A DNA stretch of 21,079 nucleotides from a virus: positions 1 through 21,079 of the IMG/VR virus record IMGVR_UViG_3300045930_000317; one strand, 5' to 3'. Shown here piece after piece: positions 3,168 to 20,396 of the stretch. The notes beneath the pieces were generated by a model. It worked only from the letters and a program-made list of their open reading frames with translations, made no database searches and was not told where the DNA came from. The translations under genes were made by a program, and so were the position numbers. Numbering within the stretch: the stretch's first letter is position 1; each line of letters starts with the position of its first letter.

Positions 3168-4007
3168 GCTGGATCTCCTTTTGCGGCCATAGGCGGCCAA
3201 CTGGGAAAACGTGTCGTCGAGCGATTGGACGCCGTCGATGAGCTGTCGCTCTACGGCGGCCTGGCCCACGTGCACGCGCCCGTCGGCCAACTGCCGCGCC
3301 GCTTCCAGGCTGAGCTTGCGCCCCGCCTTCACGCCGCGGATAAAAAACTCGTTTAGTTCGGTGACGATCTTTTGCTGCTCGGTGAGCTGCTCGGCTGTCA
3401 CCTCGGTGCCTGGCGTAAACGCGCCTTTGAAGTCGCCGGCGCGGATCACGTGCACCTTGATGCCTTCCTTGGCGGCCATTGCCGAATAGTCGTAGACCAC
3501 GCCATAGGTGCCGATGCTGCCGACGATCGCCGTCGGGTTGGCATAGACGTGCGTCGCCTGGCTGGCGATCCAGTAGGCGGCACTGGCGCCCAGGTCCTCG
3601 ATAAAGGCCCAGACCGGTTTTTGCTTGGCGGCCGCGGCCACGTCGTCGGCCAGCTCCTTGGTGCCGGCGGCCGTGCCGCCTGGCGATTCGACGTGCAGCA
3701 GGATGGCGGCCACGTCGGGGTTGCGGACTGCCGCGCGGATCTTGCGGCGGGTCATCACGGTGCTGGTCGAGCGGGACAGGCTGGCCTGTTGCTTTTGCAG
3801 GCTGCCGTAAATGCCGATCAGCTCCACGCCGTCGCGGATGTCGGGCCGCTGCTCTTCGGATGCTTGCCTGGCGGCCTGGCTGGGGGCGGTCTGCAGGTGC
3901 AGGTGCAGGTCCAGGCCCATAAACCATTGATAGCCGGCGCGGAAATCCTCCTCGCGGATGGCCCACACTCCCAGCCACTGATCGAAATGGGGGACGCTAG
4001 CTAGCAT
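2613..4007 (-). CDS. S49 (SppA/lambda C-like) capsid maturation protease
   Basis: The product is 464 residues. The N-terminal ~270 form an S49/SppA-type serine protease domain like lambda gpC, which matures the head. Visible motifs are the oxyanion strand E-S-P-G-G-T (107-112), the nucleophile Ser142 in G-A-S-A-A-Y-W-I-A-S, G-S-I-G-T-Y-G-V (163-170) and the general-base Lys194 in G-D-F-K-G-A-F. The C-terminal ~184 residues are Ala/Glu/Gln-rich, helical and end in a basic tail, as in scaffold proteins, and they have their own internal start (2613-3167). The ATG overlaps the portal stop by 11 bp, indicating translational coupling. Lambda C is arranged the same way, with the scaffold (Nu3) encoded in its 3' end. 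Confidence 0.88.
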   Translation of the reverse strand: MLASVPHFDQWLGVWAIREEDFRAGYQWFMGLDLHLHLQTAPSQAARQASEEQRPDIRDGVELIGIYGSLQKQQASLSRSTSTVMTRRKIRAAVRNPDVAAILLHVESPGGTAAGTKELADDVAAAAKQKPVWAFIEDLGASAAYWIASQATHVYANPTAIVGSIGTYGVVYDYSAMAAKEGIKVHVIRAGDFKGAFTPGTEVTAEQLTEQQKIVTELNEFFIRGVKAGRKLSLEAARQLADGRVHVGQAAVERQLIDGVQSLDDTFSQLAAYGRKRRSSMSLETAAEAALTPQASTDAAVTTAATAAAQILPFAAEAKPASRPATLAELKAACPGATNDFLVSQLEANATAAQASAAWMAKLAADNARLSQENASLKDAKPAEQAAPAGKGPGADPVGAGVEGNQTTGDALSQFEQAVAEEIEQTKKPRHEAVQAVCRRDPQMREAMVAAHNAKHSKARQRRA

Positions 4008-5625
4008 TGGCTGCCTTTGGTTTGGCCGGCGGCTCGGCGTCTTCGCCCTCGGTGGCGCTGACGCTGGTGCCCTGGGCGGTGAACACGCGGAGCAGCTCGT
4101 CGCGGGTGATCTCTTTCGCCGGCGGCAGCTTGAGCTTCTTGTTGAGTTCCTGGGCTTTCAGCTCGGCGGCCTCGAGCATGGCCGCGGCGTCGGCCACAAA
4201 CTCGGGGACCAGCTCGTCGTATTGCTCGCCCTGGCGGGCCCGCTGTCGGCGGGGGCTGATCTGCTTGGTGGCCAGCTCCAAAGCGTTGGCGCTGATGTCC
4301 TTGTTTGGTTCGATGTACGACCAGGTGGGCGGGTGCCAGGTGTGATCGAACGGCCGAAAGCTGTCGCTCTTCATGGCCGTGCGACGGCGAGGATCCTTGG
4401 CCAGCTTGCGGCGGACACGCCAGCGCCAGACCGGTGAATAGAAACCGTCGATCTGTCGCCGCTGAATAACGCGGTAACGGATCCGGGCCTGGTCGATGGC
4501 TCCGCGCCAGCCGCTGAAATTGGTTTGCTTGGCGTCGAGCAGCAAAACCTGGACTGGCAGGTCCAGGTTTACGGCAATGATCGTGAGGATCATTAGCGTA
4601 TGTTCGCTGTACTGCGGGCCTGGGATTGTCGGGGAAAACCCGGTCAGGCCCCACCCTTCCGGCGCCCGCACGCGCATGCCTGGGGCCAGGCCCTGGCGGG
4701 TGCGTGTGGTGCCGTCGTCGAGCGTTTCGCTGGTGCTGGCGCCGGTCGTGATCTGGGCGGCCGTGCGGGGCTGCGGCAGATTGGCACCGATGCCGATGAG
4801 CTGCTGCTCGAGGATGGCGAAACAGCTTTGCGCCTGGACGGCCACCAGCGTGGCGAATTGAATGTCGTCGTGGTATGAGCAGGGCAGGGCGATCGGGGCA
4901 AACGCGGTGATGCCGCGGCGTTGGCTGAAGCGCTTGGGGAAGTGGAGGTGCAAAACCTGCTTTTCGCCTTCGCTGTCGCGGGCCGGCACTTCGCGTACGT
5001 CCTTGTCGAGCAGCGTGGCGAAGGGGTCCACGTCCTCATTGGCGAAGTAGTAGCTGGTGCGGCGGGCCGTCTTGGCGTCGAGGTTGACGCCGTGCACGCA
5101 GCTTTTGCGACGCGATCGGCTGGGCTGGCGGCAGCGGTGGGCCTCGATGAATTGCAGCCGGTCGTTATTTAGCGGCAGGCAAAACGTGTCGCCGTCGACC
5201 GGAATCGAACGGATGGCGAGCAGCTCCAGCTCATAAAAGGTACGCTCACCCTCGGCGTCGCAACGGTCGGGATTCGCGCACCAGTCGTACCAGTCGTCCT
5301 TGAGCTCGGTATCGAAACCGGTGTCGCCGGTGTTGGGGTCGGGGGTAAATCCCTCTTGGACCAGGTTAGCCGTGAGCCGGTCGACCGCCTGGCCGACGAT
5401 CATGTTGTTGCGGTCGTAGTTACGGGCCCGCTCAATACCGCGGTAAAACTTGGTGGCGTCTCGATAGTGATAGTCGGCGCCGCTGCCGCTGATCTGCACG
5501 CCGCGGGGCGTGGGGAAATACGGTCCCGTGCCGCCGATGTCAAAATCGGCCCGATAGTCCTGATAGGCCTGGGCAAACTGGCTCGGCAGGTCCAGGCACT
5601 CGGATTGTCGCTGGCGGCTGGGCAA
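3997..5625 (-). CDS. Portal protein (lambda B family)
   Basis: This 542-residue protein would form the dodecameric ring at the unique capsid vertex through which DNA is packaged. It resembles lambda-family portals (gpB is 533 residues). Features are an N-terminal Y-R-G-I-E-R-A-R-N-Y-D-R-N-N segment, V-D-R-L-T-A-N-L-V-Q-E-G-F-T-P (about 82-96), W-Y-D-W-C-A-N-P-D-R-C-D, and a central I-A-V-N-L-D-L-P-V-Q-V-L-L-L-D and N-F-S-G-W-R-G-A-I-D-Q-A region typical of the family. The only usable start near the N-terminus is a TTG at 5625, two bases after the preceding gene's TAA, with no obvious Shine-Dalgarno, so translation probably depends on coupling. Its stop overlaps the protease start. Confidence 0.9.
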   Translation of the reverse strand: MPSRQRQSECLDLPSQFAQAYQDYRADFDIGGTGPYFPTPRGVQISGSGADYHYRDATKFYRGIERARNYDRNNMIVGQAVDRLTANLVQEGFTPDPNTGDTGFDTELKDDWYDWCANPDRCDAEGERTFYELELLAIRSIPVDGDTFCLPLNNDRLQFIEAHRCRQPSRSRRKSCVHGVNLDAKTARRTSYYFANEDVDPFATLLDKDVREVPARDSEGEKQVLHLHFPKRFSQRRGITAFAPIALPCSYHDDIQFATLVAVQAQSCFAILEQQLIGIGANLPQPRTAAQITTGASTSETLDDGTTRTRQGLAPGMRVRAPEGWGLTGFSPTIPGPQYSEHTLMILTIIAVNLDLPVQVLLLDAKQTNFSGWRGAIDQARIRYRVIQRRQIDGFYSPVWRWRVRRKLAKDPRRRTAMKSDSFRPFDHTWHPPTWSYIEPNKDISANALELATKQISPRRQRARQGEQYDELVPEFVADAAAMLEAAELKAQELNKKLKLPPAKEITRDELLRVFTAQGTSVSATEGEDAEPPAKPKAANAS

Positions 5626-6294: not shown

Positions 6295-7080
6295 TCAAAG
6301 GATAGTGTATTTGGGATAGGGCAGGGACGGGGGCAGCTCGAGGCGGGCCTGGCGGTCGAGGCCCCACGCATATTTATGGTTGCCGGCGTGTCGTAGCGGC
6401 CGGGTGATAATGGGCAGCCAGGCGGCTGCCCACTCCCGCAAATCACGTCCAGGCCGATCGGCGCCGTGGGCGATCAGCAGCTCGGCGGTGTAGCGCCAGC
6501 CCTTCGCGCCGGCCTGCAGCTTGGAAATAGCACGGGCAGATAGGACCGATCCGTCGGGCAGTAGCCGCAGGGTGCGGCGCGTCGCGCGGCCCAGGTAGAC
6601 GCCATTGTGGGCTTGGTAGATCGTCCCAATATGTCCGGGGAAAACTATGACTCCGGCGGCTGTCCGGCGCCGCACCGGATCGCTAAAGCTGACCACGCCG
6701 CGGGCGCCCTCGCGGTGGAGCAGCTCGAAGCACCTGGCCAAGAACCAGGTCTCGCCATTGCCGGGGACTGTGTCGAGCAGCACAAAGCGGCCCAGCTCGC
6801 GGGCGTCCAGGGCGGGCATGGGGAAGGTATTAGTCAGGACCAGGTCATTGCACGGGTGCGAAAATACGGCCACGCCGGCCAGGCGTCCGCGGGTATATAG
6901 GCCAAACCGATCGCGGGCAGCCGGGTAGGTGCCGCTGTAGTGGTGTTGCTCAACAAACCGCTTGGGCTCGGTGTCGTTATCGATCGGCGCGACCTCATAG
7001 CGTCGCGGGTCGATGACCTCGCCGGCGGGGCGGTAGCTGTCGCGACGGTCGCGCCAGCGCTGGTTACTCGTCGCGATCAT
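6295..7080 (-). CDS. Mom-like DNA-modification protein
   Basis: The 261-residue product resembles the phage Mu Mom family, GNAT-fold proteins that modify adenine in phage DNA to block host restriction. Seen in order: E-Q-H-H-Y-S-G-T-Y-P (44-53); G-L-Y-T-R-G-R-L-A-G-V-A-V-F (60-73); E-L-G-R-F-V-L-L-D (95-103); N-G-E-T-W-F-L-A-R (108-116); V-S-F-S-D-P (130-135); G-T-I-Y-Q-A-H-N-G-V-Y-L-G (152-164, like the Y-x-A-x-N-W-x-Y-x-G signature); and a terminal L-P-Y-P-K (253-257). The start at 7080 is an ATG with a small hairpin 7 nt upstream. Upstream in-frame codons run through the 49-bp repeat and are probably leader. Its neighbours are unknown accessory genes, and no Com-like zinc-finger gene lies next to it. 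Function is inferred from motifs. Confidence 0.75.
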   Translation of the reverse strand: MIATSNQRWRDRRDSYRPAGEVIDPRRYEVAPIDNDTEPKRFVEQHHYSGTYPAARDRFGLYTRGRLAGVAVFSHPCNDLVLTNTFPMPALDARELGRFVLLDTVPGNGETWFLARCFELLHREGARGVVSFSDPVRRRTAAGVIVFPGHIGTIYQAHNGVYLGRATRRTLRLLPDGSVLSARAISKLQAGAKGWRYTAELLIAHGADRPGRDLREWAAAWLPIITRPLRHAGNHKYAWGLDRQARLELPPSLPYPKYTIL

Positions 7081-7087
7081 CGAATTA

Positions 7088-7102
7088 CTGCCGCGGGGGC
7101 AG
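7088..7102 (-). promoter_or_regulatory. Start-proximal hairpin before the Mom-like gene
   Basis: On the minus strand CTGCC, a 5-nt loop and GGCAG form a 5-bp stem that ends 7 nt before the ATG at 7080. GAGG lies just before it. The same hairpin, with a 6-nt loop, precedes the gene starting at 7615. Its position suggests control of ribosome access. Confidence 0.5.
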
Positions 7103-7133
7103 CCTCGAAACGGGGAACAAACGGGCAACAAAT

Positions 7134-7182
7134 AGGCCGCGCGGCCGGGGACGATCCGGCCAGGTGCCAGCGCGCGGCGGGG
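7134..7182. repeat. 49-bp direct repeat, copy 1 (leader of the Mom-like gene)
   Basis: It is identical over 49 bases to 7685-7733, and each copy lies 50-70 bases upstream of an ATG. It contains GGCCGCGCGGCC (12-bp palindrome) and a GGCCGG/CCGGCC hairpin on the minus strand. It also covers the end of the gap after the gene ending at 7190. Confidence 0.85.
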
Positions 7183-7189
7183 CATCGTC

Positions 7190-7615
7190 TTAGGCCAGAT
7201 CGCGCGGATCCGGGCGACAAGTGGGCAGGAATTTGAAACCGTGCTCGCGACACCAACGGCGGAACCAAATGACCGCGCGGACGTCGCAAGCCAGAATGCT
7301 CAACTCATTGGCGGCGTTCCACCAATAGTCTGATACTCTGACCAGGCCTCGGGGCGTGTCGAAATACCAAACGGCGGATACTTTGCCGGCGCCGTCGATC
7401 AGGTCGTGACCCTCATAGTTGCGCCATTGATCCGACGGGGCGGCGCAGTGCGGATTGCCTAACCGCGCGGCGAATTGCTCGAGCGTGCATACCAGCGTGG
7501 CGCAACGGCCGCCCGCTCTGCGCTTCAATGGGACTCGGGGCAGGTCGTGGTGCCATTGCTTAGATCGCTCGGCGGTGGCCAGGGATACATGCCGGCTAGC
7601 TAGAATCGTCGTCAT
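7190..7615 (-). CDS. Unknown phage accessory protein (YWWN-type)
   Basis: The product is 141 residues, beginning M-T-T-I-L-A-S-R at an ATG (7615). It has a conserved-looking core W-Y-F-D-T-P-R-G-L-V-R-V-S-D-Y-W-W-N-A-A-N-E-L-S-I (about 83-107), then W-F-R-R-W-C and G-F-K-F near the C-terminus. Many aromatic residues and a few Cys are present, but no regular zinc motif. No signal peptide or membrane segment is visible. It is expressed with the Mom-like gene and shares the duplicated leader (49-bp repeat at 7685-7733 and hairpin at 7624-7639). I do not recognise a function; joint regulation with the Mom-like gene suggests a role in DNA modification or anti-restriction, but that is a guess. Confidence 0.7.
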   Translation of the reverse strand: MTTILASRHVSLATAERSKQWHHDLPRVPLKRRAGGRCATLVCTLEQFAARLGNPHCAAPSDQWRNYEGHDLIDGAGKVSAVWYFDTPRGLVRVSDYWWNAANELSILACDVRAVIWFRRWCREHGFKFLPTCRPDPRDLA

Positions 7616-7623
7616 TGGTCGTA

Positions 7624-7639
7624 CTGCCTCGAGGGGCAG
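7624..7639 (-). promoter_or_regulatory. Start-proximal hairpin before the gene at 7190-7615
   Basis: CTGCC and GGCAG arms (7635-7639/7624-7628) with a 6-nt loop lie 8 nt before the ATG at 7615. GAGG-CTGCCCC followed by GGCAGTA is shared with the leader of the Mom-like gene. Confidence 0.5.
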
Positions 7640-7684
7640 CCTCCTGGGAATGGGGTGACACTATCGGCCGCCGAAATGGCGGCC

Positions 7685-7733
7685 AGGCCGCGCGGCCGGG
7701 GACGATCCGGCCAGGTGCCAGCGCGCGGCGGGG
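7685..7733. repeat. 49-bp direct repeat, copy 2
   Basis: It is identical to 7134-7182 and starts immediately downstream of the stop of the gene ending at 7739. Together with the hairpin at 7624-7639 it forms the leader of the gene at 7190-7615. The exact identity over 49 bases in non-coding DNA implies recent duplication or strong constraint. Confidence 0.85.
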
Positions 7734-7738
7734 GACGA

Positions 7739-8164
7739 TCAGACCGCGGCCAGCGGAATATGGCCGGGTTGGATGCAATCGGTGGGCTGTTTATCCTGGG
7801 CGTCGCGAATGGCGCGGGCGGCGTATATCGCGCGCTCCCAGGCCTGCCCGTCTGGCGCGTGCATCCGCGGCATGCTGGCCAGGTCGCGCAGAAATCTATC
7901 GGCCCAAAATACGTCGAGGATCGGGCCGCGATTGGCCGGGCAATGCTCCTCGATAAATAACAATCCGCCGTGGCCTGAGCTGGCGCGGGCAATGCCAGCG
8001 CGGCAGCGGTAGCCGAATTCTCCGCGCTGAAATTCGGTCCAAGTGATTTCGTTTCGCGCGACGCAATAAAGCGCGATGCCGTGCAGCGTAACCTGCTGGC
8101 CTAGTCGGCGGATCTCGTCTTCGGCGGCGGCGCGGCTGGGGAAATTGTACTTTCGGCGTGTCAT
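7739..8164 (-). CDS. Unknown phage accessory protein
   Basis: The product is 141 residues from an ATG at 8164 with GGAG about 10 nt upstream. The N-terminus (M-T-R-R-K-Y-N-F-P-S-R-A-A-A-E-D-E-I-R-R-L-G) looks helical. The middle contains I-A-L-Y-C-V-A-R-N-E-I-T-W and the acidic I-L-D-V-F-W-A-D-R-F-L-R-D-L-A. No catalytic motif, signal peptide or membrane segment is evident. It precedes the YWWN-type gene in the same direction, and its stop is 5 nt from the 49-bp repeat. Function is not recognised. Confidence 0.65.
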   Translation of the reverse strand: MTRRKYNFPSRAAAEDEIRRLGQQVTLHGIALYCVARNEITWTEFQRGEFGYRCRAGIARASSGHGGLLFIEEHCPANRGPILDVFWADRFLRDLASMPRMHAPDGQAWERAIYAARAIRDAQDKQPTDCIQPGHIPLAAV

Positions 8165-10754: not shown

Positions 10755-12863
10755 TCAGTGGCGATCGAGGACGAAATAGGGGCGGCCGTCGGGAAGCGAC
10801 AGCGCGCTCGAGGGTGTCGGGGGTCGGTGCTCGGGGCTCGGCCGTGGGGTCGTCTTCACCAGGCGGACGCCGCAGTAGTGGGCGGCGGGGCTGGCCAGCA
10901 TGCCGGCGTCGAGAAAGTGATTGGTGCGGCGGAGCTGCTCAAATCGCGTGACGTGTCCTTTTCCGGGGACATACTCGGTTACGCGGCGCTCGGCCGACCA
11001 GTGCTTGGCTATACCGGCGTGCTCCTTGCGGTCCGGCGTGCGGTACAGCGTGAGGCAGGCGGGCAGCAGGGTCTGGGACCCCTCCGCGCGGAGCGGCGCC
11101 AGCAGGCGATCCTGAAAAAAGCCTTTCCAATGGTCGGAATCGATATGCACGACGGCCAGGCGGTGGACCGGGTCGGCCTGCAGGTGGTAGCGCTCTCCGA
11201 TCGCCAGGATGGTCTTGCTGGTCGCCCGCGGCTGGCTGTAGCGCTCCGCCCGAAAATTGCCGACGCCAAAACCCAGGCAGGGCCGAAACCTCTCGCGCTC
11301 GCTTTCCAAAATGAATCGGAAGACGGCGGCGTCGCCCTTGTTGTCACCCTGATAGCGGGCGTCGACCCAGCATTGATCGGGCACCCATTTGGTGCTGGTG
11401 CCATCGATGGTAAAGCCGGGCATGATCACCTGGTCCCGCCACGCGCGGAGGGCCTGCAGGATGGCGACCGCGGCGTCCAGCTCGTCGCCGGCGACCGGCA
11501 GCCAGCGGTAATCGACGACGTGGGCCCGGCCGTCGGCCGTCCAGGCTATTACCTTGTAGTGCAGTTGCCGCTTGCGGAGATCGCAGCCGCTGGTGAGGCA
11601 GAAAGTATCGGCCGGCACGATACCGCGCTCCCAGGGACCCATGCGGCCCATCAGGGCATTGGCGTCGAGGGTCTGCTGCTCGTCGCCGGCGGCCTGGTAG
11701 GGCCGGCACCAAATAAATTGATGCTGCTTTCGCTCGTGGGCGTCCTCATCGACGGCGTTTTTGCCTTCCCACTCGAATTGACCTAGCTGGCCGGCGGTGA
11801 GAAACAGGTTATTAAACGCATTCCAGCGGAAGCCCAGCATGTCGGTTTTGGGGGCGTCGCCGACGATCCGCAGGCGATGACTCTTGGCCCGCGCGTTTTC
11901 GACCTCGATCGCCTGGCCCTTATGCAGCAGCACGGCCCGCTCATTCATGGCGCGGCGCTGGGTGTCGTCGATGGGATTTTCGCAGGCCGGGCACTGGAAG
12001 CTGGTTGTGAGCTTGGCGTCGTCGCCGCTGGCCGCGTCGCTCCAGCCGACCAGGTGCTCACGCTCGGGCGTGACAAAGGCGCGGCAGTGGGGGCAGGGGC
12101 AAGCGATGCGGCTGGCGGTCCCGGCCGTGTAGTGCGACCAGATCACGTCGCTTTCGATCTCGACCGTGCATTCCATGTAAACCAGCGACTGATCGCCGAA
12201 TGACAGCAGGCGGGCCAGGAGCTGCTCGAGCTTCGTGGATTCGTTGGAGGCCTCGGCGGATCCGCCAAAAGCATTCGCCTCGGTGATGACCAGCACGCGG
12301 CAGGCAAAACCGGCCCGGCTTTTGTCGCCGCCGCCGGCGGAAAAGAACTTGAGAGCTGCCCCGTTCTTGAACAGCACCATGTTTTTGACTTTGCCGCCCT
12401 GCGATCCCTCGCCGCGGGCGGGCAGCAGCTCGCGATAGCGGGTCCGCTCGATGGCCGGCAGGATGTCCTTGCGCCATTTGTCGTCTGCCATGTCCATGTC
12501 GGGCAGCGCAAAGCCGACGGTCTCGCCGATCTCGAATAGGTGGTAGGTGACGGGGACCACGGTCCCCTGCCAGGATTTGCCGGATTGGCTGGGGCCGGTG
12601 GTGATGATGCGGCGAAAGCGGGTCGACGGCTGAAAGTCGAGGTTGCCGTCGCAGGCGTCGAGCCAGAGCCCGGTAAACGGCTGGCGGGCAACTTTGAAAC
12701 GCCGATCCTTGAATGGCCCCTCGGGCAGGATCAGCTCCTGCTCGGCGAATTGGCGGCGGGTGCGGAGCTTTGGCGCGCGGGAATTGGAAAGCATCCAGCG
12801 CAACTCATCGCGGGCGCCGGATATGCCAGGCAAGTGGCCGCCCCACTCAAGCGTCGCCGTCAT
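10755..12863 (-). CDS. Terminase large subunit (GpA family)
   Basis: This 702-residue ATPase and nuclease would cut and package phage DNA into the head. Seen in order: a Walker A motif G-P-S-Q-S-G-K-S (90-97); L-V-I-T-E-A-N-A-F-G-G (191-201, the Walker B region); a zinc-ribbon-like cluster with Cys at 255, 257, 260, 291 and 294; and a nuclease part with G-C-D-L-R-K-R-Q-L-H-Y-K-V and C-W-V-D-A-R-Y-Q-G-D. Lambda gpA is 641 residues. I choose the ATG at 12863 over a GTG at 12887 because GGGG lies 5-8 nt before it. It overlaps the preceding gene by 17 bp. Accessory genes, not W, follow it. Confidence 0.93.
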   Translation of the reverse strand: MTATLEWGGHLPGISGARDELRWMLSNSRAPKLRTRRQFAEQELILPEGPFKDRRFKVARQPFTGLWLDACDGNLDFQPSTRFRRIITTGPSQSGKSWQGTVVPVTYHLFEIGETVGFALPDMDMADDKWRKDILPAIERTRYRELLPARGEGSQGGKVKNMVLFKNGAALKFFSAGGGDKSRAGFACRVLVITEANAFGGSAEASNESTKLEQLLARLLSFGDQSLVYMECTVEIESDVIWSHYTAGTASRIACPCPHCRAFVTPEREHLVGWSDAASGDDAKLTTSFQCPACENPIDDTQRRAMNERAVLLHKGQAIEVENARAKSHRLRIVGDAPKTDMLGFRWNAFNNLFLTAGQLGQFEWEGKNAVDEDAHERKQHQFIWCRPYQAAGDEQQTLDANALMGRMGPWERGIVPADTFCLTSGCDLRKRQLHYKVIAWTADGRAHVVDYRWLPVAGDELDAAVAILQALRAWRDQVIMPGFTIDGTSTKWVPDQCWVDARYQGDNKGDAAVFRFILESERERFRPCLGFGVGNFRAERYSQPRATSKTILAIGERYHLQADPVHRLAVVHIDSDHWKGFFQDRLLAPLRAEGSQTLLPACLTLYRTPDRKEHAGIAKHWSAERRVTEYVPGKGHVTRFEQLRRTNHFLDAGMLASPAAHYCGVRLVKTTPRPSPEHRPPTPSSALSLPDGRPYFVLDRH

Positions 12864-13467
12864 TTGTTTCCCCGCTAGTTGTCTCACCGTCGAAAAACTG
12901 CTCGACGGCCCGCTCGCATTCGTTTAGCGTCTCGTTGAACAGGTCCAGGGCGTCCTCGCCAAACTGCCTTTGGAGCTGGTCACCGCAGTGCCGCAGGATG
13001 CCGGCGATCTGGGCCAGCGCTGCGCGCATCTTGTCACGCGAAACCAGCGTGCCGTCGCGCTCGGCCAGGTCCCGCAGGCGGAGCTGATACTCGACTTCTC
13101 GCTTCCGCTCGAGGGCCGGACTGTCGGTCCCGCCCTCCCAGATTTCGCTCGAGGCGTCGCCGGCTAGCAGCTTGCGGCCACTGGTGGCCAGCATGTCGTG
13201 CAGCCAGCGGGCCACGTTGGGCAGGTTGATCGTTTCCTCGCCCAGGGGCACGCCGTAAGCCATCGCCTGTTCGTTGATGACCTTGTGCTGCCGGCCGCTC
13301 CACTGGCACCACAGTTTTTTCGGCAGCGTGGCGTAGTGCTCGCGCCGCAGCTCCTGGTCGCGGAGCTTGGCGGCCCGGTCGGCGGCGCGCTGCTGGCGCA
13401 GCGAGGGCTCCCGCTGGGCTGGCGGCTCGGCGGGCGGGATGTTCTTTCGCGGCAGCTTGCGCGGCAA
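12847..13467 (-). CDS. Terminase small subunit-like protein (Nu1-like)
   Basis: This 206-residue protein lies directly before the large terminase and overlaps it by 17 bp, where lambda has Nu1 (181 residues), the DNA-recognition subunit. The N-terminal 50 residues are basic, Pro/Arg/Gln-rich and probably disordered. A segment near 60-90 (H-K-V-I-N-E-Q-A-M-A-Y-G-V-P) could hold a winged-helix-type DNA-binding element. The C-terminal half is helical, L-E-R-K-R-E-V-E-Y-Q-L-R-L-R-D-L-A-E-R-D-G-T-L-V, then R-A-A-L-A-Q-I-A-G-I-L, as in Nu1-type oligomerisation regions. The frame is closed upstream by a TGA, leaving a TTG at 13467 as start. The dispersed palindrome at 13495-13515 lies 28 bases upstream. 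Confidence 0.72.
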   Translation of the reverse strand: MPRKLPRKNIPPAEPPAQREPSLRQQRAADRAAKLRDQELRREHYATLPKKLWCQWSGRQHKVINEQAMAYGVPLGEETINLPNVARWLHDMLATSGRKLLAGDASSEIWEGGTDSPALERKREVEYQLRLRDLAERDGTLVSRDKMRAALAQIAGILRHCGDQLQRQFGEDALDLFNETLNECERAVEQFFDGETTSGETNDGDA

Positions 13468-13494: not shown

Positions 13495-13515
13495 TTTGCT
13501 AGTTCGACTAGCAAA
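13495..13515. repeat. Dispersed palindrome, copy B, upstream of the terminase operon
   Basis: TTTGCTAGT (13495-13503), spacer TCG, ACTAGCAAA (13507-13515): 9-bp perfect arms. It fills most of the gap between the gene ending at 13518 and the small terminase start, where an operator or roadblock site for the packaging genes could act. Confidence 0.7.
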
Positions 13516-13517
13516 AC

Positions 13518-13856
13518 CTACGGGGCGGGCGGCGCCGGGGGCGTGGTCAGCGCGTCCAGGCTGGTAAACTTCGCGCTGATTGCTTCGGCGCGGGTCTGGA
13601 CGCTGGCCAGGATGGCCTGCGTTTCGGGTGGCAACTGGCCGCTGGCCGCCACCAGCTTGGCGATTTCGTCCTTGAGGGACGCCACGTCGGCGGCCAGGCC
13701 GTCGTGCGCGACGTCGAGGTTGTCGAAAGCGGCGGTCACTGCCGCCTGGAAATCGTCGATCTGTGCCATGATTTTGTCCTCGGAATTTCTAAGCAGCCGC
13801 GCTATCACTCGTAGAGCGGCGGCGTCGAACGTGTGGTGATGGCGAAACGTGAACAT
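13518..13856 (-). CDS. Small coiled-coil phage protein
   Basis: From the ATG at 13856 this gives 112 residues, starting M-F-T-F-R-H-H-H-T-F. A long helix follows (A-L-R-V-I-A-R-L-L-R-N-S-E-D-K-I-M-A-Q-I-D-D-F), then a segment V-A-S-L-K-D-E-I-A-K-L-V-A and a Pro/Ala tail. His-rich starts followed by M-A/T-x-x-D-D-helices are common in small phage proteins near lysis or tail genes; their role is unknown. A second start at 13769 (83 residues, M-A-Q-I-D-D-F) has the better Shine-Dalgarno (AGGA, 8 nt). The longer start is chosen because it continues the helix and leaves only a 13-nt gap to the gene before it. Confidence 0.62.
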   Translation of the reverse strand: MFTFRHHHTFDAAALRVIARLLRNSEDKIMAQIDDFQAAVTAAFDNLDVAHDGLAADVASLKDEIAKLVAASGQLPPETQAILASVQTRAEAISAKFTSLDALTTPPAPPAP

Positions 13857-13869
13857 CAAAAAATGCGGT

Positions 13870-14142
13870 TTACGGCCGGGCGGCCGTATGGTTGTGCGAG
13901 TCTTTCCAGACACCGCTGCGCTGATCGTCGCGGATCTCTTTGAGCAGGTCCTTGAGGGTTTCCATTGCCGACGCGGTCCGCAGCGAAGCCTCGGAATAGT
14001 TTTTGTTGGCTTCAACCATCGGCAGGATCAGGTCGTAACGGATAATTCCCAGCAGGATCATTACCACGATGGCGGCGAAGCCGTACCGCCCGACAATCGC
14101 TTTCCAGTCGTAGGTGCCGCCGTTGCCGTTGGTGTCGCTCAT
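13870..14142 (-). CDS. Single-pass membrane protein, holin-like candidate
   Basis: The product is 90 residues from the ATG at 14142, which overlaps the stop of the nuclease gene by 4 bases (ATGA). One clear membrane segment lies at about 20-43 (Y-G-F-A-A-I-V-V-M-I-L-L-G-I-I-R-Y), followed by a charged helix (E-T-L-K-D-L-L-K-E-I-R-D-D-Q-R-S-G) and a His-rich end. Upstream in-frame codons overlap the nuclease gene and are Pro/His/Arg-rich, so they are not used. Small one-pass proteins with a charged tail near the terminase are often holin or spanin components. That role is inferred from position only. Confidence 0.65.
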   Translation of the reverse strand: MSDTNGNGGTYDWKAIVGRYGFAAIVVMILLGIIRYDLILPMVEANKNYSEASLRTASAMETLKDLLKEIRDDQRSGVWKDSHNHTAARP

Positions 14143-14477
14143 CGGGTGCTTTCCATCGGCAGGGCCTGGCCGGCGGTGATCAGGTCGTCGTTGAGGATGT
14201 GGCCGGAAGTGCCGTACACGCGGGCCAGCATGCGGCCATACTTTTCCCGCTTGTCTTTGAAGGTTTGCAGGGTGAATGCGTCCTGGCGGTCGACCCATTC
14301 CTTGGCCCATTTTTTGGCCGCCTTGCCCTCGGGCGTGGTCAGCTCGGGGGCGTTGACGCCGTACAGCCGCACCTGCGTCTTGGTGTGGATGCAAAACCCC
14401 AGATCGACCGTGACCGCGAGCGTGTCGGCGTCAATGACGCGATCGATCGTGCAGCGGTAGATAAATTCGGGCAGCAT
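14139..14477 (-). CDS. Staphylococcal nuclease-like (SNase/TNase) protein
   Basis: This 112-residue protein shows the SNase fold pattern: R-V-I-D-A-D-T-L-A-V-T-V-D (the metal-site D-A-D-T), V-R-L-Y-G-V-N-A-P-E-L, and D-K-R-E-K-Y-G-R-M-L-A-R-V-Y with the typical catalytic Arg/Lys residues. It lacks a signal peptide and is shorter than secreted thermonuclease (about 150), as phage and plasmid copies often are. The ATG at 14477 overlaps the stop of the small membrane gene before it (TAATG). It would cut DNA or RNA with calcium. In this cassette it could degrade host DNA late in infection. Substrate and timing are unknown. Confidence 0.85.
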   Translation of the reverse strand: MLPEFIYRCTIDRVIDADTLAVTVDLGFCIHTKTQVRLYGVNAPELTTPEGKAAKKWAKEWVDRQDAFTLQTFKDKREKYGRMLARVYGTSGHILNDDLITAGQALPMESTR

Positions 14478-14572
14478 TATTCGAGGCAGCACCAGGCCAG
14501 GCCGCCGGCGACGGCCGCAAAGGCCGCCCCGGCGGAGAGGACGATCAGAGTTAGCAGGGCGTGGTCGATCAC
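14477..14572 (-). CDS. 31-residue membrane peptide
   Basis: A GTG at 14572 overlaps the stop of the gene before it (GTGA), and its TAA overlaps the next ATG (TAATG). The product, M-I-D-H-A-L-L-T-L-I-V-L then S-A-G-A-A-F-A-A-V-A-G-G-L-A-W-C-C-L-E, is a single hydrophobic helix with almost no other sequence. The exact fit between two genes with overlaps at both ends argues that it is translated. It could be a miniature holin, an antiholin-like peptide or a partner of the secreted protein encoded before it. Confidence 0.5.
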   Translation of the reverse strand: MIDHALLTLIVLSAGAAFAAVAGGLAWCCLE

Positions 14573-14826
14573 TTCACAAAGAAGGCGCTGCAGCTCGGCG
14601 CGACGACGGCCGCGGGTGCGTACACGGGCGCCGCATACACGGCGGCAGGTGCGACGACGGGCGCGGCGTACACTGGCGCGGCGACGACCGGAGCAACCAC
14701 CACGGCCGCGCGGTGATGCGACACTCGCACGCGAGCGCGGAAAGCCCGCGGGTGGGTGGCCTGGGCCGGCTGGGCCAGGCAGGATACCGCCAACAGGGCG
14801 GCGCCGATCAGGGCGATGCGTTTCAT
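14569..14826 (-). CDS. Secreted Ala/Pro/Val-rich protein with repeats
   Basis: The product is 85 residues with an N-terminal signal peptide (M-K-R-I-A-L-I-G-A-A-L-L-A-V-S-C-L-A-Q-P-A-Q-A), either cleaved after A-Q-A or, less likely, lipidated at Cys16. The mature part starts with Arg/His residues and then consists of V-V-A-x-P-V-Y-A-A-P repeats, ending C-S-A-F-F-V-K. The ATG has GGAG 7 nt upstream and overlaps the stop of the cytochrome-like gene (ATGA). Similar low-complexity secreted proteins are frequent in Planctomycetes. A structural or spanin-like role at the cell envelope is possible. Confidence 0.72.
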   Translation of the reverse strand: MKRIALIGAALLAVSCLAQPAQATHPRAFRARVRVSHHRAAVVVAPVVAAPVYAAPVVAPAAVYAAPVYAPAAVVAPSCSAFFVK

Positions 14827-15425
14827 TTGAATTCTCCACTCGGTAAGGGTTCAGGGACTTGCACGGGTGACGGCCGGTCTGCGGCCTGCTCGCGAGCCTC
14901 CAGATCGAGCAGCTCCTGCATGGCTAGGCCTTTGACCTCGGCCGCGATCTTGTGATCTTTGGGCATCGCGTCGCTGGCGATCGCGCGCAAGGATGCTGTG
15001 ATCTGCCAGCAGTCCATTGGCGTCTCGCCGTCGATCGTGATGCCGCTTTTCGGTGTGGGCCCGCTGTGACACTTGGCGCAGTGCTGGGAGAGCACGGATT
15101 TCTTGGCGGTCTGCGGCTGGCGGATGTTGGCGGTGGCGAGCTGGGCCACGATCTTAGGCACGGCCAGGCGGGCTACCTTTTCGGCCAGGGCCTCGGCCTC
15201 GATGTCGCGGCCAGCCTGGTAATAAATCGGCGCGGCATAGGCGGCGACGACCGGCGCCACGGCCACGGCCTGCTTGTGGACGAAAAACTGGCGGCAGTTG
15301 TCGGCACGGGCCGCAGAAGTGCAGGCCAGCAGCAGCAGGATCGTGAGGATCCAAAAGGCGACCGTAGCGATCAGGTCCCAATTCCAATGTGGCAGTTTCA
15401 GGTCGCGAATTAGTTTGCTTGCCAT
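14823..15425 (-). CDS. Exported protein with one c-type haem motif (cytochrome c-like)
   Basis: The product is 200 residues from the ATG at 15425. A hydrophobic segment (about 18-35, ending L-L-L-L-A-C at a lipobox-like site with Cys35) would export or anchor it. Residues 116-120 are C-A-K-C-H, a c-type haem-binding motif, preceded by V-L-S-Q-H and followed by S-G. A plausible axial Met is in S-D-A-M-P (Met154). The C-terminal part is Glu-rich with Pro. The start overlaps the end of the gene before it by 16 bp. A longer frame to 15857 overlaps that gene and is Pro/Arg-rich, so it is rejected. Haem attachment needs the host's cytochrome c maturation machinery. Why a phage would encode it is unclear. 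Confidence 0.72.
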   Translation of the reverse strand: MASKLIRDLKLPHWNWDLIATVAFWILTILLLLACTSAARADNCRQFFVHKQAVAVAPVVAAYAAPIYYQAGRDIEAEALAEKVARLAVPKIVAQLATANIRQPQTAKKSVLSQHCAKCHSGPTPKSGITIDGETPMDCWQITASLRAIASDAMPKDHKIAAEVKGLAMQELLDLEAREQAADRPSPVQVPEPLPSGEFK

Positions 15426-16711
15426 AGGGCGATTACCTTTTGAGCGAGTGCGAAACTGGCCTGCCACTGTTCGCGGCTGATCGGTACGTCTTGCGCTGCC
15501 AGAGCCAGGCGGCCGGTGAGCTGATACGTGCGCGAATAGTCGCCCAGCGCCAGCCGCCACTCGTCGCGCGTGGTGTAAAGCTCGCGGGCCTGCTGCTCGA
15601 GGGTGAGCGGGGCGTCGTAGAGCTGGACCAGCAGGCGGAAGGCGGCGGCGTTCTGCTGGGGCGTCAGGCCATTGCAGAGCCCCACTGCGGCCGCATAGTC
15701 CTCGTTGTTGCGGTTGATCTCCTTGGCGATCGGTGAATCCAGATAGCGGTCGATCTCCTGCTGGGTGGCCTTGTCGTGCGTGTAGATCCGGGCGCCGCTG
15801 AGAATGTACGACCGATATTGATCGAGCGTCGGGTGCCGTAGGCCCTCTGTGTGGCAAACGATGCAGCTCAAGGTGTTGCGGATCTCGACGCCGCGCGTGC
15901 CGGTGCTGTCGGTGACGATGTCGGCCGGCGCTTTCTCCTGCCGTTTACCCTGACCGTCGGCCAAAAAATAGGCTTGCAGGCTGCCGGACTGGCCGGCGTA
16001 ATGCTTGGGGATGGCCGCGATCAGCTCGCTGGCGTCGTGCTTTGGCGGACGGGCGGCGAGATTTTCCAGCGGGTCGGTCGCGCAGGCGATGGCCCGGCTG
16101 TCATACGTCTGCCAGCTATAGCCGCGGTTGCCGGTGGGGTGGTTTTCCATCAGGCGGGTACGCTGCACGGCCACGCCGCTGTCGCCCTCGATGCGGCCGA
16201 AGAATAGATCCGGCTTCTCGTTGACAGCCCAAAACTTGCGAAATTCCTTGTCGGTCTTCGGCGGCGTGCCGTAAAGCAACTGGTACTGGCCGTCGGCCGT
16301 GAGGTTGGAGTCGGGGAGTGCGGCGACGAACCATAGGCCGCTGACCACCAGCGGGATCTGGGTCAGGTGGGCCGTGTCGGGGCGGTAGGCCGGCACGTAG
16401 TGCGTGCGAATTACCGCCGGCCAGGTCTTTTCCCAGCCCAGCCCCAGCAGGTCGAGGCGCAACAGGTTGGTGCCTGGCACGGCGACGGGGAGCTGGTCGC
16501 CCAGGTACGGCTTGCTGCTGAGTGAGGCGGCCGTGAAGGCGATCACCTTGGCCAATGCCTCGCGGTGCTCGGGTGCGACGATCGACGTCGTCAGGTAGGC
16601 CGTGTACGGCTGCTGCGCGGGTGGCAGCGTCTGCAGATCGGAAAACGCGGCGTCGCTGTCAGAGCCAGCGGCCAGCACAAGCATTGCGGTGAGTATGGCC
16701 GACATCCTCAC
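15410..16711 (-). CDS. Secreted CxxCH protein (c-type cytochrome-like), 433 residues
   Basis: The N-terminus (M-R-M-S-A-I-L-T-A-M-L-V-L-A-A-G-S) is a signal peptide. One haem motif C-I-V-C-H lies at 283-287, in N-T-L-S-C-I-V-C-H-T-E-G-L. No Met follows Met188, so any axial ligand must be another residue, such as a His or Lys after the motif. The C-terminal ~130 residues are helical (Y-T-T-R-D-E-W-R-L-A-L-G-D-Y-S-R). The start, GTG at 16711, overlaps the stop of the metalloprotease gene (GTGA); an ATG at 16705 is possible. Long secreted proteins with a single CxxCH are typical of Planctomycetes. Its presence inside a phage late operon is unusual. Confidence 0.68.
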   Translation of the reverse strand: MRMSAILTAMLVLAAGSDSDAAFSDLQTLPPAQQPYTAYLTTSIVAPEHREALAKVIAFTAASLSSKPYLGDQLPVAVPGTNLLRLDLLGLGWEKTWPAVIRTHYVPAYRPDTAHLTQIPLVVSGLWFVAALPDSNLTADGQYQLLYGTPPKTDKEFRKFWAVNEKPDLFFGRIEGDSGVAVQRTRLMENHPTGNRGYSWQTYDSRAIACATDPLENLAARPPKHDASELIAAIPKHYAGQSGSLQAYFLADGQGKRQEKAPADIVTDSTGTRGVEIRNTLSCIVCHTEGLRHPTLDQYRSYILSGARIYTHDKATQQEIDRYLDSPIAKEINRNNEDYAAAVGLCNGLTPQQNAAAFRLLVQLYDAPLTLEQQARELYTTRDEWRLALGDYSRTYQLTGRLALAAQDVPISREQWQASFALAQKVIALWQAN

Positions 16712-17340
16712 GCTACCCTCTTGAATGTTCCCTTGCCGCGGTACTTCGCGCCGCTTATTTCAAACTCCACGGAGCCGGCCAGTTCTGACGGCAGGTTGGC
16801 CGGCGGCGGCTGGCTGCTGATCGGCGGGCCGTACAGCTTGCGGCCATAGCTGACATCGTCCTCCTGCGGCAAGTAAATGCGCGGCGAGTAGGTCGGGTTC
16901 ATCAAGTCGGCGTCGCCGTCGGCCGAAATGTGCTGCATGCCCAGGCAGTGGCCGTTCTCATGCGTCAGCACGGCCAGCAAGTTGATTTTTCCGGCCGGCG
17001 GATTGTCACTGATCACCCACGGGCCCACTCGATCGACGCGCATCAAGAGATTGACGCCGCCGCCATAGGGGAGCTGCTGATCGGCCAGAATCCCGTTGGG
17101 GCCGTCGAGGTCGGCGACGCTCACGATCTGCGTCGTGTCGGTTTTCGGGTTGGCGTGCTTATCGACGGTGATGCCGATCACCGCTGCCCAGCGCTTCCAG
17201 GCCTCCATCACGGCCGCTTCAAAATCCTCGCGCGAGATTCCCGGCAGCACGTCGCGGCAAAAGAACGTCACGCGACTGCTGGGCAGCTTGACTTGCGCAG
17301 CACCGGCGCCGAACGCTTCACTGACTCCGCAAAAGTGCAC
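16708..17340 (-). CDS. Matrixin-type (M10) zinc metalloprotease
   Basis: The product is 210 residues. The metzincin signature H-E-N-G-H-C-L-G-M-Q-H (127-137) gives zinc ligands His127, His131 and His137 and catalytic Glu128. The Met-turn is D-L-M-N-P-T-Y (145-151, Met147). Upstream lies a matrixin-like N-domain with A-V-M-E-A-W-K-R-W-A-A-V-I-G-I-T-V (43-59). No signal peptide is visible at the GTG start (17340), which has AGGCGG about 8 nt upstream, so it may reach its target during lysis or in the virion. It would cleave peptide bonds in extracellular or envelope proteins. It overlaps the next gene by GTGA. Confidence 0.82.
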   Translation of the reverse strand: MHFCGVSEAFGAGAAQVKLPSSRVTFFCRDVLPGISREDFEAAVMEAWKRWAAVIGITVDKHANPKTDTTQIVSVADLDGPNGILADQQLPYGGGVNLLMRVDRVGPWVISDNPPAGKINLLAVLTHENGHCLGMQHISADGDADLMNPTYSPRIYLPQEDDVSYGRKLYGPPISSQPPPANLPSELAGSVEFEISGAKYRGKGTFKRVA

Positions 17341-17343
17341 GCG

Positions 17344-17685
17344 CTAACCGCCTTTCAGCAGCGAGATCAGAAATTGGAGCAGTGCCGGATTCTCGCGGCC
17401 GAATTGCCATAGGGCCCGCAAAAGCGAGCCATCAAATGCCGCATTGGGGCCGGCGATCAGCTCGGCCACCTGCCCCTCGAGGGCCAGCTCCTCGTCGGTC
17501 GGTACACAGATTGAGAGAGTGCCGGCCGCCGGCGTCGTTGACGGAATGAGACCTTTAACGGCGGTGACCAGGTCGGTGGTAGTCGCGACCCAGGCCTGGA
17601 GCTTGGGCCAAATCGCTTGCAGCTTCGGGCCCAGAGTGAGCAGGAACGACAAGAAGGCGGCGTAGCGCTCAAAAGCTGCTGGCAC
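17344..17685 (-). CDS. Small helical, partly hydrophobic phage protein
   Basis: The product is 113 residues from a GTG at 17685 with AGGA 8 nt upstream. It is helical with hydrophobic faces: F-E-R-Y-A-A-F-L-S-F-L-L-T-L-G-P-K-L near the start and L-L-R-A-L-W-Q-F, A-L-L-Q-F-L-I-S-L-L-K-G-G at the end. A linker with P-S-T-T-P-A-A-G lies between. Neither segment is a clear membrane span, though the C-terminus is amphipathic. It is the first gene of the cassette with the metalloprotease. A holin or membrane-active role is possible; no family is recognised. Confidence 0.65.
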   Translation of the reverse strand: MPAAFERYAAFLSFLLTLGPKLQAIWPKLQAWVATTTDLVTAVKGLIPSTTPAAGTLSICVPTDEELALEGQVAELIAGPNAAFDGSLLRALWQFGRENPALLQFLISLLKGG

Positions 17686-19575: not shown

Positions 19576-19791
19576 ATGCTAGTGCTGTCCCGCAAGCGGA
19601 ATGAATCGATCGTGATCGCCGACAACATCGTGGTCACCGTGGTGGAAGTCCACGGCGACAAGGTGCGGCTGGGAATTGAGGCGCCGATCGAAGTGCCCGT
19701 GCACCGGCGCGAGGTTTATGAGGCGATCCAGCGGGACCGGGCCCGCGAGGCGGCGGCAGCGAGCGAGCAGGCCGATGGATCGGCAAACTGA
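19576..19791 (+). CDS. csrA: CsrA/RsmA-type translational regulator
   Basis: The product is 71 residues and matches CsrA along its length: M-L-V-L-S-R-K-R-N-E-S-I-V-I at the N-terminus, K-V-R-L-G-I-E-A-P in the middle and V-P-V-H-R-R-E-V-Y (RNA-contact Leu4 and Arg44 both present). CsrA dimers bind GGA motifs in mRNA leaders, usually over the Shine-Dalgarno, and repress translation. Its own AAGGAG lies 7 nt before the ATG, so autoregulation is possible. It overlaps the sigma-factor gene by 17 bases, which links the two in translation. In a phage it may reprogram host mRNAs or time phage expression. Confidence 0.95.
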   Translation: MLVLSRKRNESIVIADNIVVTVVEVHGDKVRLGIEAPIEVPVHRREVYEAIQRDRAREAAAASEQADGSAN

Positions 19792-20383
19792 GTATGAGCT
19801 GATCGACCAGGCCCAGGCTGGAAACGAGCAGGCCAAGCTGGCGCTGATCGACCAGCACACGCGAGCCCTGTGGAAAATGGCCCGCAGCACCAGGGCCCGC
19901 GGCGAAACGCTCGAGGATTTATATCAGTGGGCCGTGCTGTTCTTTTTGGAAGCCGTCCAAAAGTTCAAGGCGGTTTTTAATGTGCGGCTGTCCACGTTTA
20001 GCTATCAGCACGTGCGGCAGCGGGTGTATGGCGTGGCCTGGCGTAGCGGCGTCATTCACCTGCCCAACCAGGCCAAAAAAACTGATGCCGGTAAATGCGA
20101 TCTGGCCATGCGGCTCTCGGGAATTACGGACGGGAATTTCAAGTTTGTCGAGCGGCACCTGTCATGCCCGCCGCCCGTGGCCCTGGAAGACGGCGAGGAG
20201 CGGGCGCTGTTCTATGCCGCGCTCGCGCGGCTGCCGAACAGGCTTCGCCACGTGCTCGAGCTGCGGCTCTCGGGGCTGACGCTGGGGGCCGTCGGCGATG
20301 AGCTGGGAGTGAGCAAGGAGCGCGTCCGCCAGATCGAAAATGAGGGGATCCAGCGGCTGCGGCTGATTTTGGGCGTTTGCTAG
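19775..20383 (+). CDS. Sigma-70 family factor (FliA/SigB-like), phage-encoded
   Basis: The product is 202 residues. Region 2 lies at about 17-90: D-L-Y-Q-W-A-V-L-F-F-L-E-A-V (48-61) and R-L-S-T-F-S-Y-Q-H-V-R-Q-R-V-Y (71-85), the core-binding and -10-recognition segments. Region 4 lies at about 145-199: L-P-N-R-L-R-H-V-L-E-L-R (153-164) and an HTH L-G-A-V-G-D-E-L-G-V-S-K-E-R-V-R-Q-I-E-N (170-189) for -35 recognition. Region 1.1 is absent and region 3 reduced. I choose the ATG at 19775 because upstream codons overlap csrA and are Arg-rich. The stop lies inside the palindrome at 20376. It may direct the late promoters of this phage. Confidence 0.9.
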   Translation: MDRQTEYELIDQAQAGNEQAKLALIDQHTRALWKMARSTRARGETLEDLYQWAVLFFLEAVQKFKAVFNVRLSTFSYQHVRQRVYGVAWRSGVIHLPNQAKKTDAGKCDLAMRLSGITDGNFKFVERHLSCPPPVALEDGEERALFYAALARLPNRLRHVLELRLSGLTLGAVGDELGVSKERVRQIENEGIQRLRLILGVC

Positions 20384-20396
20384 TCGGACTAGCAAA
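20376..20396. repeat. Dispersed palindrome, copy C, at the end of the sigma gene
   Basis: TTTGCTAGT (20376-20384), spacer CGG, ACTAGCAAA (20388-20396). It contains the sigma-factor stop codon and lies between convergent genes, 4 bases from the ACTGGA hairpin. Its core is identical to copy A. Confidence 0.7.

Follow-up and report, generated by a model that had tools for sequence, protein, structure and literature searches.

The gene cassette upstream of the terminase

The window analyzed here is IMG/VR virus record IMGVR_UViG_3300045930_000317, a linear, incomplete record of 21,079 bp that represents a fragment of a phage genome. On its minus strand, running from position 17685 to 13518, lies a single cassette of genes joined by overlapping or almost overlapping start and stop codons, directly upstream of the genes for the small and large terminase subunits (TerS and TerL). 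In order of transcription, it encodes a 113-aa hydrophobic protein, a matrixin, two proteins with a CxxCH motif (here called CxxCH-L and CxxCH-S), an Ala/Val/Pro-rich protein, a tiny transmembrane (TM) protein, an SNase, a 90-aa TM protein, and an 83-aa helical protein. An initial annotation had described such a gene set upstream of the terminase, and all of the genes that it claimed are present at about the positions given. We consider that observation to be right because of the overlapping gene run, the codon-position GC profile, which resembles that of TerL (GC2 low, GC3 ~0.75-0.88, as in real genes), and the family score and motifs of the matrixin.

The matrixin gene (16708..17340, minus strand, as are all cassette genes) encodes a metallopeptidase of family M10. 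Its product scores 54 bits against PF00413, for which the cut-off is 24, and carries both the zinc motif HENGHCLGMQH (HExxHxxGxxH) and the Met-turn LMNP, with the catalytic residues intact; its matches in PDB are MMP-8 and MMP-1 (down to 7.5e-9). The Peptidase_M10 identity suggested initially is therefore sound. The protein shares sequence family, zinc motif and Met-turn with the matrixins and matrix metalloproteinases (MMPs), and differs from them in being phage-encoded, in having no secretion signal by hydropathy, and in being coupled to CxxCH genes. Its N-terminal MHFCGVSE resembles, by eye only, the PRCGVPD cysteine switch of the MMPs. A pattern search of IMG/VR returned no relatives.

CxxCH-L (15410..16711) is a predicted exported protein of 433 aa with a single SCIVCH. 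It matches no Pfam family, and belongs to an unnamed family that is common to huge phages, one prophage, and planctomycete chromosomes; the window protein aligns with the family in phage LR756511.1 at an hhalign E of 1.4e-20. Eight residues are invariant among 23 aligned sequences (S178, V180, R186, E229, C283, C286, H287, and G290), and the motif suggests covalent heme attachment. The AlphaFold (AF2) model, built without the L003 and L097 sequences, has a pLDDT of 80 and a pTM of 0.83, and Foldseek found no match to it in PDB or BFVD with an E below 0.1. As the model matches no solved fold, CxxCH-L is not a cytochrome c. A viral scan with A23 recovered only contigs already found.

CxxCH-S (14823..15422; 199 aa) is predicted to be exported or membrane-anchored, and consists of a V/A/P-rich stretch followed by HCAKCH...AMPKD. 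The initial annotation had suggested a search for cytochrome C families, and here it gave matches below the curated cut-offs only: that to PF13442 reaches 18.1 bits against a cut-off of 27. The CAKCH and AMPKD elements together form the CxxCH...MP pattern found in PSCyt1 (PF07635), in which the methionine is a candidate distal ligand and heme binding is predicted only; the likeness is limited in that the window protein misses the Pfam cut-offs. It aligns with CxxCH-S of huge phages at an hhalign E of 4e-4 around the motif, which we regard as moderate homology. An Rz-like spanin match in PHROG (17.6 bits, E 0.0078) is probably due to chance and was not used as evidence.

The smaller genes are less easily assigned. 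The first (17344..17685) encodes a hydrophobic/amphipathic protein of 113 aa that is a possible counterpart of an amphipathic gene of huge phages (134-221 aa, A12); the hhalign match is weak (E 0.0067, prob 5.7), so that this status depends on position and composition. Judged likewise by position and composition only, the exported 85-aa Ala/Val/Pro-rich protein (14569..14826) may correspond to the Val/Ala/Pro-rich (VAP-rich) protein whose gene ends the module in huge phages. It is followed by the tiny single-TM protein (14477..14587; ~31-36 aa, hydropathy 2.34), a holin-like candidate; the SNase-like endonuclease (14139..14492; PF00565 36 bits, phrog_452 109 bits); the 90-aa TM protein with a helical tail (13870..14142; hydropathy 2.36), a holin- or i-spanin-like candidate; and the 83-aa helical/coiled protein (13518..13769), which ends in PPAPPAP and has weak matches only. 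For the two TM proteins no holin match was found, in Pfam for the tiny one and in PHROG or Pfam for the other. Two similar arrangements were read from sequence in relatives: a TM-plus-coil gene resembling the 90-aa protein (L021, 5230-5547), and, before TerS in L012 (6402-7277), an SNase-like sequence with TM segments on either side.

The CxxCH genes in unrelated viruses and planctomycete chromosomes

Outside the lambda-like group, about 10 contigs, several of them from huge phages, keep CxxCH-L, CxxCH-S and, mostly, the VAP-rich protein in the same order. A tblastn search of INPHARED with CxxCH-L matched a single record, the 595-kb phage LR756511.1, which has two copies. One sits in a run of six genes that encodes an exported Trx-like protein, a papain-like peptidase, an amphipathic protein, CxxCH-L (611 aa), CxxCH-S (243 aa), and an exported VAP-rich protein; the other comes after an exported C39-like protein. 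A six-gene run of this make-up is present in four further contigs of 341 kb (L110), 187 kb (L112), 85 kb (L156), and 51 kb (L150). Variants include L158 (149 kb), with amphipathic, exported, papain-like, CxxCH-L and CxxCH-S genes; L155 and L157, with Trx-like, CxxCH-L, CxxCH-S and VAP-rich genes, the latter also having a divergent C39-like gene nearby; and L159, where the CxxCH pair has no neighboring peptidase. By kind and order, the window corresponds to genes 3-6 of the huge-phage run, with the matrixin replacing the papain. The papain assignment is firm (profile A10 against PDB 3ois, 2e-17). Neither the C39-like proteases nor the Trx-like first gene found support in PDB, and the former, including the L002 protein described below, stay putative. 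A saposin-like match of 15 residues in the L156 amphipathic protein was dropped given the poor model (pLDDT 66).

The initial annotation had asked whether the same genes occur beside terminases in other phages, and CxxCH-L does so in a prophage (L144) on a 134-kb contig of a Planctomycetota genome, flanked by recJ-like and other host genes. The order there is a TM-plus-coil protein, a hydrophobic protein of 133 aa, a subtilase of family S8 (PF00082, 199 bits), CxxCH-L (484 aa), a ParB-like protein, a TerS-like protein, TerL, and portal. As the terminase differs from that of the window, two unrelated phages have CxxCH-L upstream of the terminase, and its peptidase neighbor differs between them. 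ParB-like genes just upstream of the terminase were also noticed by reading the sequences, both here (7099-7821) and in L002 (8012-8662), L011 (43-705), and L020 (7124-8458); those of L144 and L002 have no Pfam match.

Across these viruses, the peptidase class beside CxxCH-L varies between M10 (in the window), papain C1, C39-like, and subtilisin S8. We are thus dealing, with high confidence, with a peptidase-coupled CxxCH module. By hydropathy, the CxxCH and VAP-rich proteins are predicted to carry export signals, and the matrixin, papain and subtilisin types to carry none. Since most members would be exported and the low-complexity VAP-rich proteins are retained, one could imagine remodeling of the host surface or superinfection exclusion, with the CxxCH and VAP-rich proteins, once secreted, covering or modifying the envelope and with receptors being trimmed by the peptidase. 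We think this improbable, as both in the window and in L144 the genes belong to, or border on, the late block that precedes the terminase, and three peptidase types have no signal peptide.

A planctomycete host is likely for the window phage, judging from its capsid matches and from a genome search for CxxCH-L that was limited to this phylum. The major capsid protein matches a Pirellulales metagenome-assembled genome (MAG) contig at 55% identity, Candidatus Scalindua at 29%, a Microbacteriaceae MAG (perhaps mis-binned) at 52%, and, distantly, a Calditrichia MAG at 28%. CxxCH-L was found in 11 of the 392 Planctomycetota genomes, one of these being the prophage, and some genomes have multiple copies. 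On the chromosomes it is fused behind a PSCyt1-type domain that scores above its cut-off, and some of the proteins also carry FGE-sulfatase, Ser/Thr protein kinase or DUF4384 domains. The phages encode the two CxxCH parts as separate genes, and these match the two halves of the chromosomal protein. The initial annotation had left unexplained why cytochrome-like proteins should belong in such a cassette; this correspondence, with a protein encoded beside CHAT genes, provides part of an answer, and the label itself does not suit CxxCH-L, given its modeled fold.

A gene for a TPR-CHAT peptidase lies within 8 kb of the chromosomal CxxCH-L in 6 of the 10 carriers, where 0.06 genomes would be expected (P ~5e-12, or 6e-10 without the near-duplicate G393; genomes have 0-5 CHAT genes each). 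The coupling to peptidases thus reaches beyond phages. The phage loci are alike in encoding a CxxCH-L protein beside a peptidase gene, and differ in using M10, C1, C39-like or S8 enzymes and no CHAT; among the cassette open reading frames (ORFs) scanned, none matched CHAT, its place being held by M10. No description of CHAT loci with a CxxCH-L partner was found in the open-access papers that were searched. Near five of the host loci (L137, L141, L142, L143, and L147), reading of the sequence revealed an exported CsgG/FlgO-like protein of 374-467 aa, for which the two tested had no Pfam match; L141 and L143 also have a sigma-factor-like gene near CxxCH-L.

The CHAT neighborhood raises the main rival to an envelope role, namely counter-defense. 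If the host PSCyt1+CxxCH-L/TPR-CHAT (caspase-like) locus were a suicide or defense system, the phage domains, together with the phage's own peptidase, could act as decoys that block, titrate, cleave or hijack it. The proximity itself, the FGE-sulfatase, kinase and DUF4384 fusions, and the presence of the two CxxCH domains as separate phage genes all fit. On the other hand, PADLOC defense models gave no convincing match (only PDC-M40C to CxxCH-S, E 0.0048, 14 bits), a detectable copy in so few planctomycete genomes offers few targets for a widespread phage module, and CxxCH-L and CxxCH-S stay paired in many phage lineages, beyond what a decoy requires. We therefore hold counter-defense to be unlikely, yet worth serious consideration.

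The slot in lambda-like relatives

None of the cassette proteins has a sequence relative in the lambda-like kin that share TerL, portal and capsid with the window, and the content of the slot turns over. In a complete, circular relative of 44 kb (G005, L010), the slot holds an exported Trx-like protein, a papain-like peptidase and, just before TerS, an exported thioredoxin with WCGPC (3867-4505; PF00085, 28 bits). G014 (L021) has TM proteins and a YiiX-like protein together with a trypsin-like peptidase (PF13365, 44 bits), and G001 (L002) has an exported protein that may contain a C39-like triad. G004 and G011 lack such genes at this place, and other relatives have unrelated genes there, so that the slot is best described as a common but not constant site for peptidases. 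The G005 proteins are 24-30% identical to genes 1-2 of the huge-phage run; with the window matching genes 3-6, these two lambda-like relatives between them cover the huge-phage module, each having in this slot the half that the other lacks. A variable slot is also what one would see if unrelated cargo genes (morons) shared an insertion spot by chance, but an ordered gene set that recurs across lineages with as little as ~25% identity makes this very improbable.

The exported thioredoxin of G005 could be taken to favor an auxiliary redox function, with both CxxCH proteins being true heme proteins that aid electron transport in the infected host, and the peptidases incidental. The invariance of CxxCH in the 23 CxxCH-L sequences and the CxxCH...MP pattern kept in CxxCH-S agree with this. 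Set against it are the CxxCH-L model, which matches no solved fold and so no cytochrome c, and the repeated pairing with peptidases of different class, which it leaves unexplained; we give it little credence.

With regard to endolysins, the initial annotation had seen no classic one, and Pfam and PHROG profile scans of the 21,079-bp fragment bear this out, as no endolysin family was found among the window ORFs scanned. By Pfam, a canonical endolysin is likewise absent from the complete relative G005 (53 ORFs, 92% of the genome), and from G004 among the best 25 of 26 families.

Downstream of the cassette follow TerS (12847..13467, minus strand; phrog_57 17 bits, 30-45% identity to TerS of relatives), TerL of the GpA family (10755..12887, minus strand; PF05876 66 bits, PF20454 43 bits), a Mom gene, a lambda-family portal, an S49 protease, and the major capsid protein. 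The Mom-family DNA modification gene (6295-7185, minus strand; PF25680, 75 bits) stands between TerL and portal, and by sequence reading an ORF of L021 (1149-1904) looks similar to it. The intergenic gap between cassette and TerS contains a 19-bp palindrome, TTGCTAGTTCGACTAGCAA (13496..13514, no strand assigned); near-identical 19-bp palindromes, TTGCTAGTCSGACTAGCAA, occupy three intergenic gaps (2590-2608, 13496-13514, and 20377-20395), with 0 expected by chance. On the plus strand, CsrA (19576-19791; PF02599, 89 bits) is followed by a sigma-70-type factor (19778-20383), and CsrA-like genes are present in relatives G001, G005, and G006 too. In addition, there are an exact 49-bp direct repeat (7134-7182 and 7685-7733) near the ends of two adjacent genes, and a 91-nt repeat (410-500 and 536-626, 76% identity) that encodes NRDGxVLERLEA units in the truncated gene 1-648.

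A possible role of the module in lysis or release

The position of the cassette is that of the lambda lysis genes, as had been noted initially: it lies upstream of the terminase of a phage with a GpA-type terminase, in late orientation. The likeness to lambda S-R-Rz-Rz1 extends to the small TM proteins and to an enzyme without a signal peptide. The differences are that the enzyme is a peptidase, where that of lambda is a muralytic transglycosylase, that exported CxxCH and VAP-rich proteins are added, and that holin and spanin are candidates only.

In our judgment, it is about as likely as not that the cassette represents one form of a mobile module of planctomycete viruses that acts late and is directed at the envelope. 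Its core would be CxxCH-L and CxxCH-S, both extracytoplasmic, and an exported Val/Ala/Pro-rich protein, served by an exchangeable peptidase. We rank lysis or release as its most likely purpose, though we would stop a little short of expecting it. The matrixin would be made in the cytoplasm and would cross the inner membrane late with the help of the small membrane proteins, as endolysins do via holins. The exported CxxCH proteins would be its partners in the envelope, as a docking, activating or redox/heme-sensing factor that confines proteolysis in place and time, and degradation of host envelope protein by the peptidase would help to release the virions. Redox control could be imagined, as an idea only, from the cysteine switch that the matrixin may have, the cysteine at the active site of papains, and the thioredoxin exported in G005.

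The initial annotation had proposed an envelope module based on proteolysis, and the proposal stands in part. The swapping of peptidases in the same slot, the CxxCH pairing in unrelated viruses and the lack of a Pfam endolysin in G005 speak for it. Several points weigh against lysis or release. The matrixin has no signal peptide, whereas the L003, L002 and L021 proteases carry them, so that release through holins fails to fit every case. In G004 and G011, the genes directly upstream of TerS include no peptidase; in the DNA read for L155 and L159, no peptidase accompanies CxxCH-L; and the huge-phage module lies close to structural genes rather than to a recognized terminase. The C39-like calls (L003, L157, and L002) and the papain-like call in L158 are based on motifs and weak profile scores, and the holin and spanin assignments are guesses from hydropathy. 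Pfam could miss an endolysin that has diverged, and half of the genome of the window phage lies outside the fragment. It is important to remember that lysis is a proposed role, read from sequence.

A broader reading, which we offer tentatively and consider rather doubtful, makes CxxCH-L a general partner of extracytoplasmic peptidases, with CHAT in chromosomes and matrixin, papain, C39-like and subtilisin enzymes in viruses. Viruses would then have turned host peptidase/CxxCH machinery for cell death or envelope remodeling into a peptidase-based lysis that replaces peptidoglycan endolysins, with a slot open to exchange between catalytic classes. A link to Planctomycetota hosts, whose envelopes are unusual, is plausible. 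The lysis and exit of planctomycete phages appear to be undescribed: the open-access literature searched yielded nothing relevant on planctomycete phage lysis or endolysins, or on phage or host CxxCH/CHAT proteins, and no mention of LR756511. Papers in eLife on conflict systems have “cytochrome c” and “matrixin” only in a remark on the apoptosome and in reference lists.

The peptidases themselves belong to known families and are unremarkable. The novelty lies in a module in which an unnamed protein family, with an invariant CxxCH and a fold that matches no solved one, is tied to swapped peptidases in phages and to CHAT peptidases in hosts, and not in a demonstrated lysis mechanism. The module predicts that CxxCH-L carries heme, that it physically contacts several peptidases, and that release depends on the protease. 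The parallel with cytochrome c and caspases in eukaryotic cell death is superficial, and should not be over-read. Should the CHAT/CxxCH locus of the host serve in suicide or defense, phage-host conflict would gain a new arena; and if the reading of the module is true, CxxCH-L, coupled to four peptidase types in phages and to CHAT in hosts, would represent a new kind of envelope-acting system.

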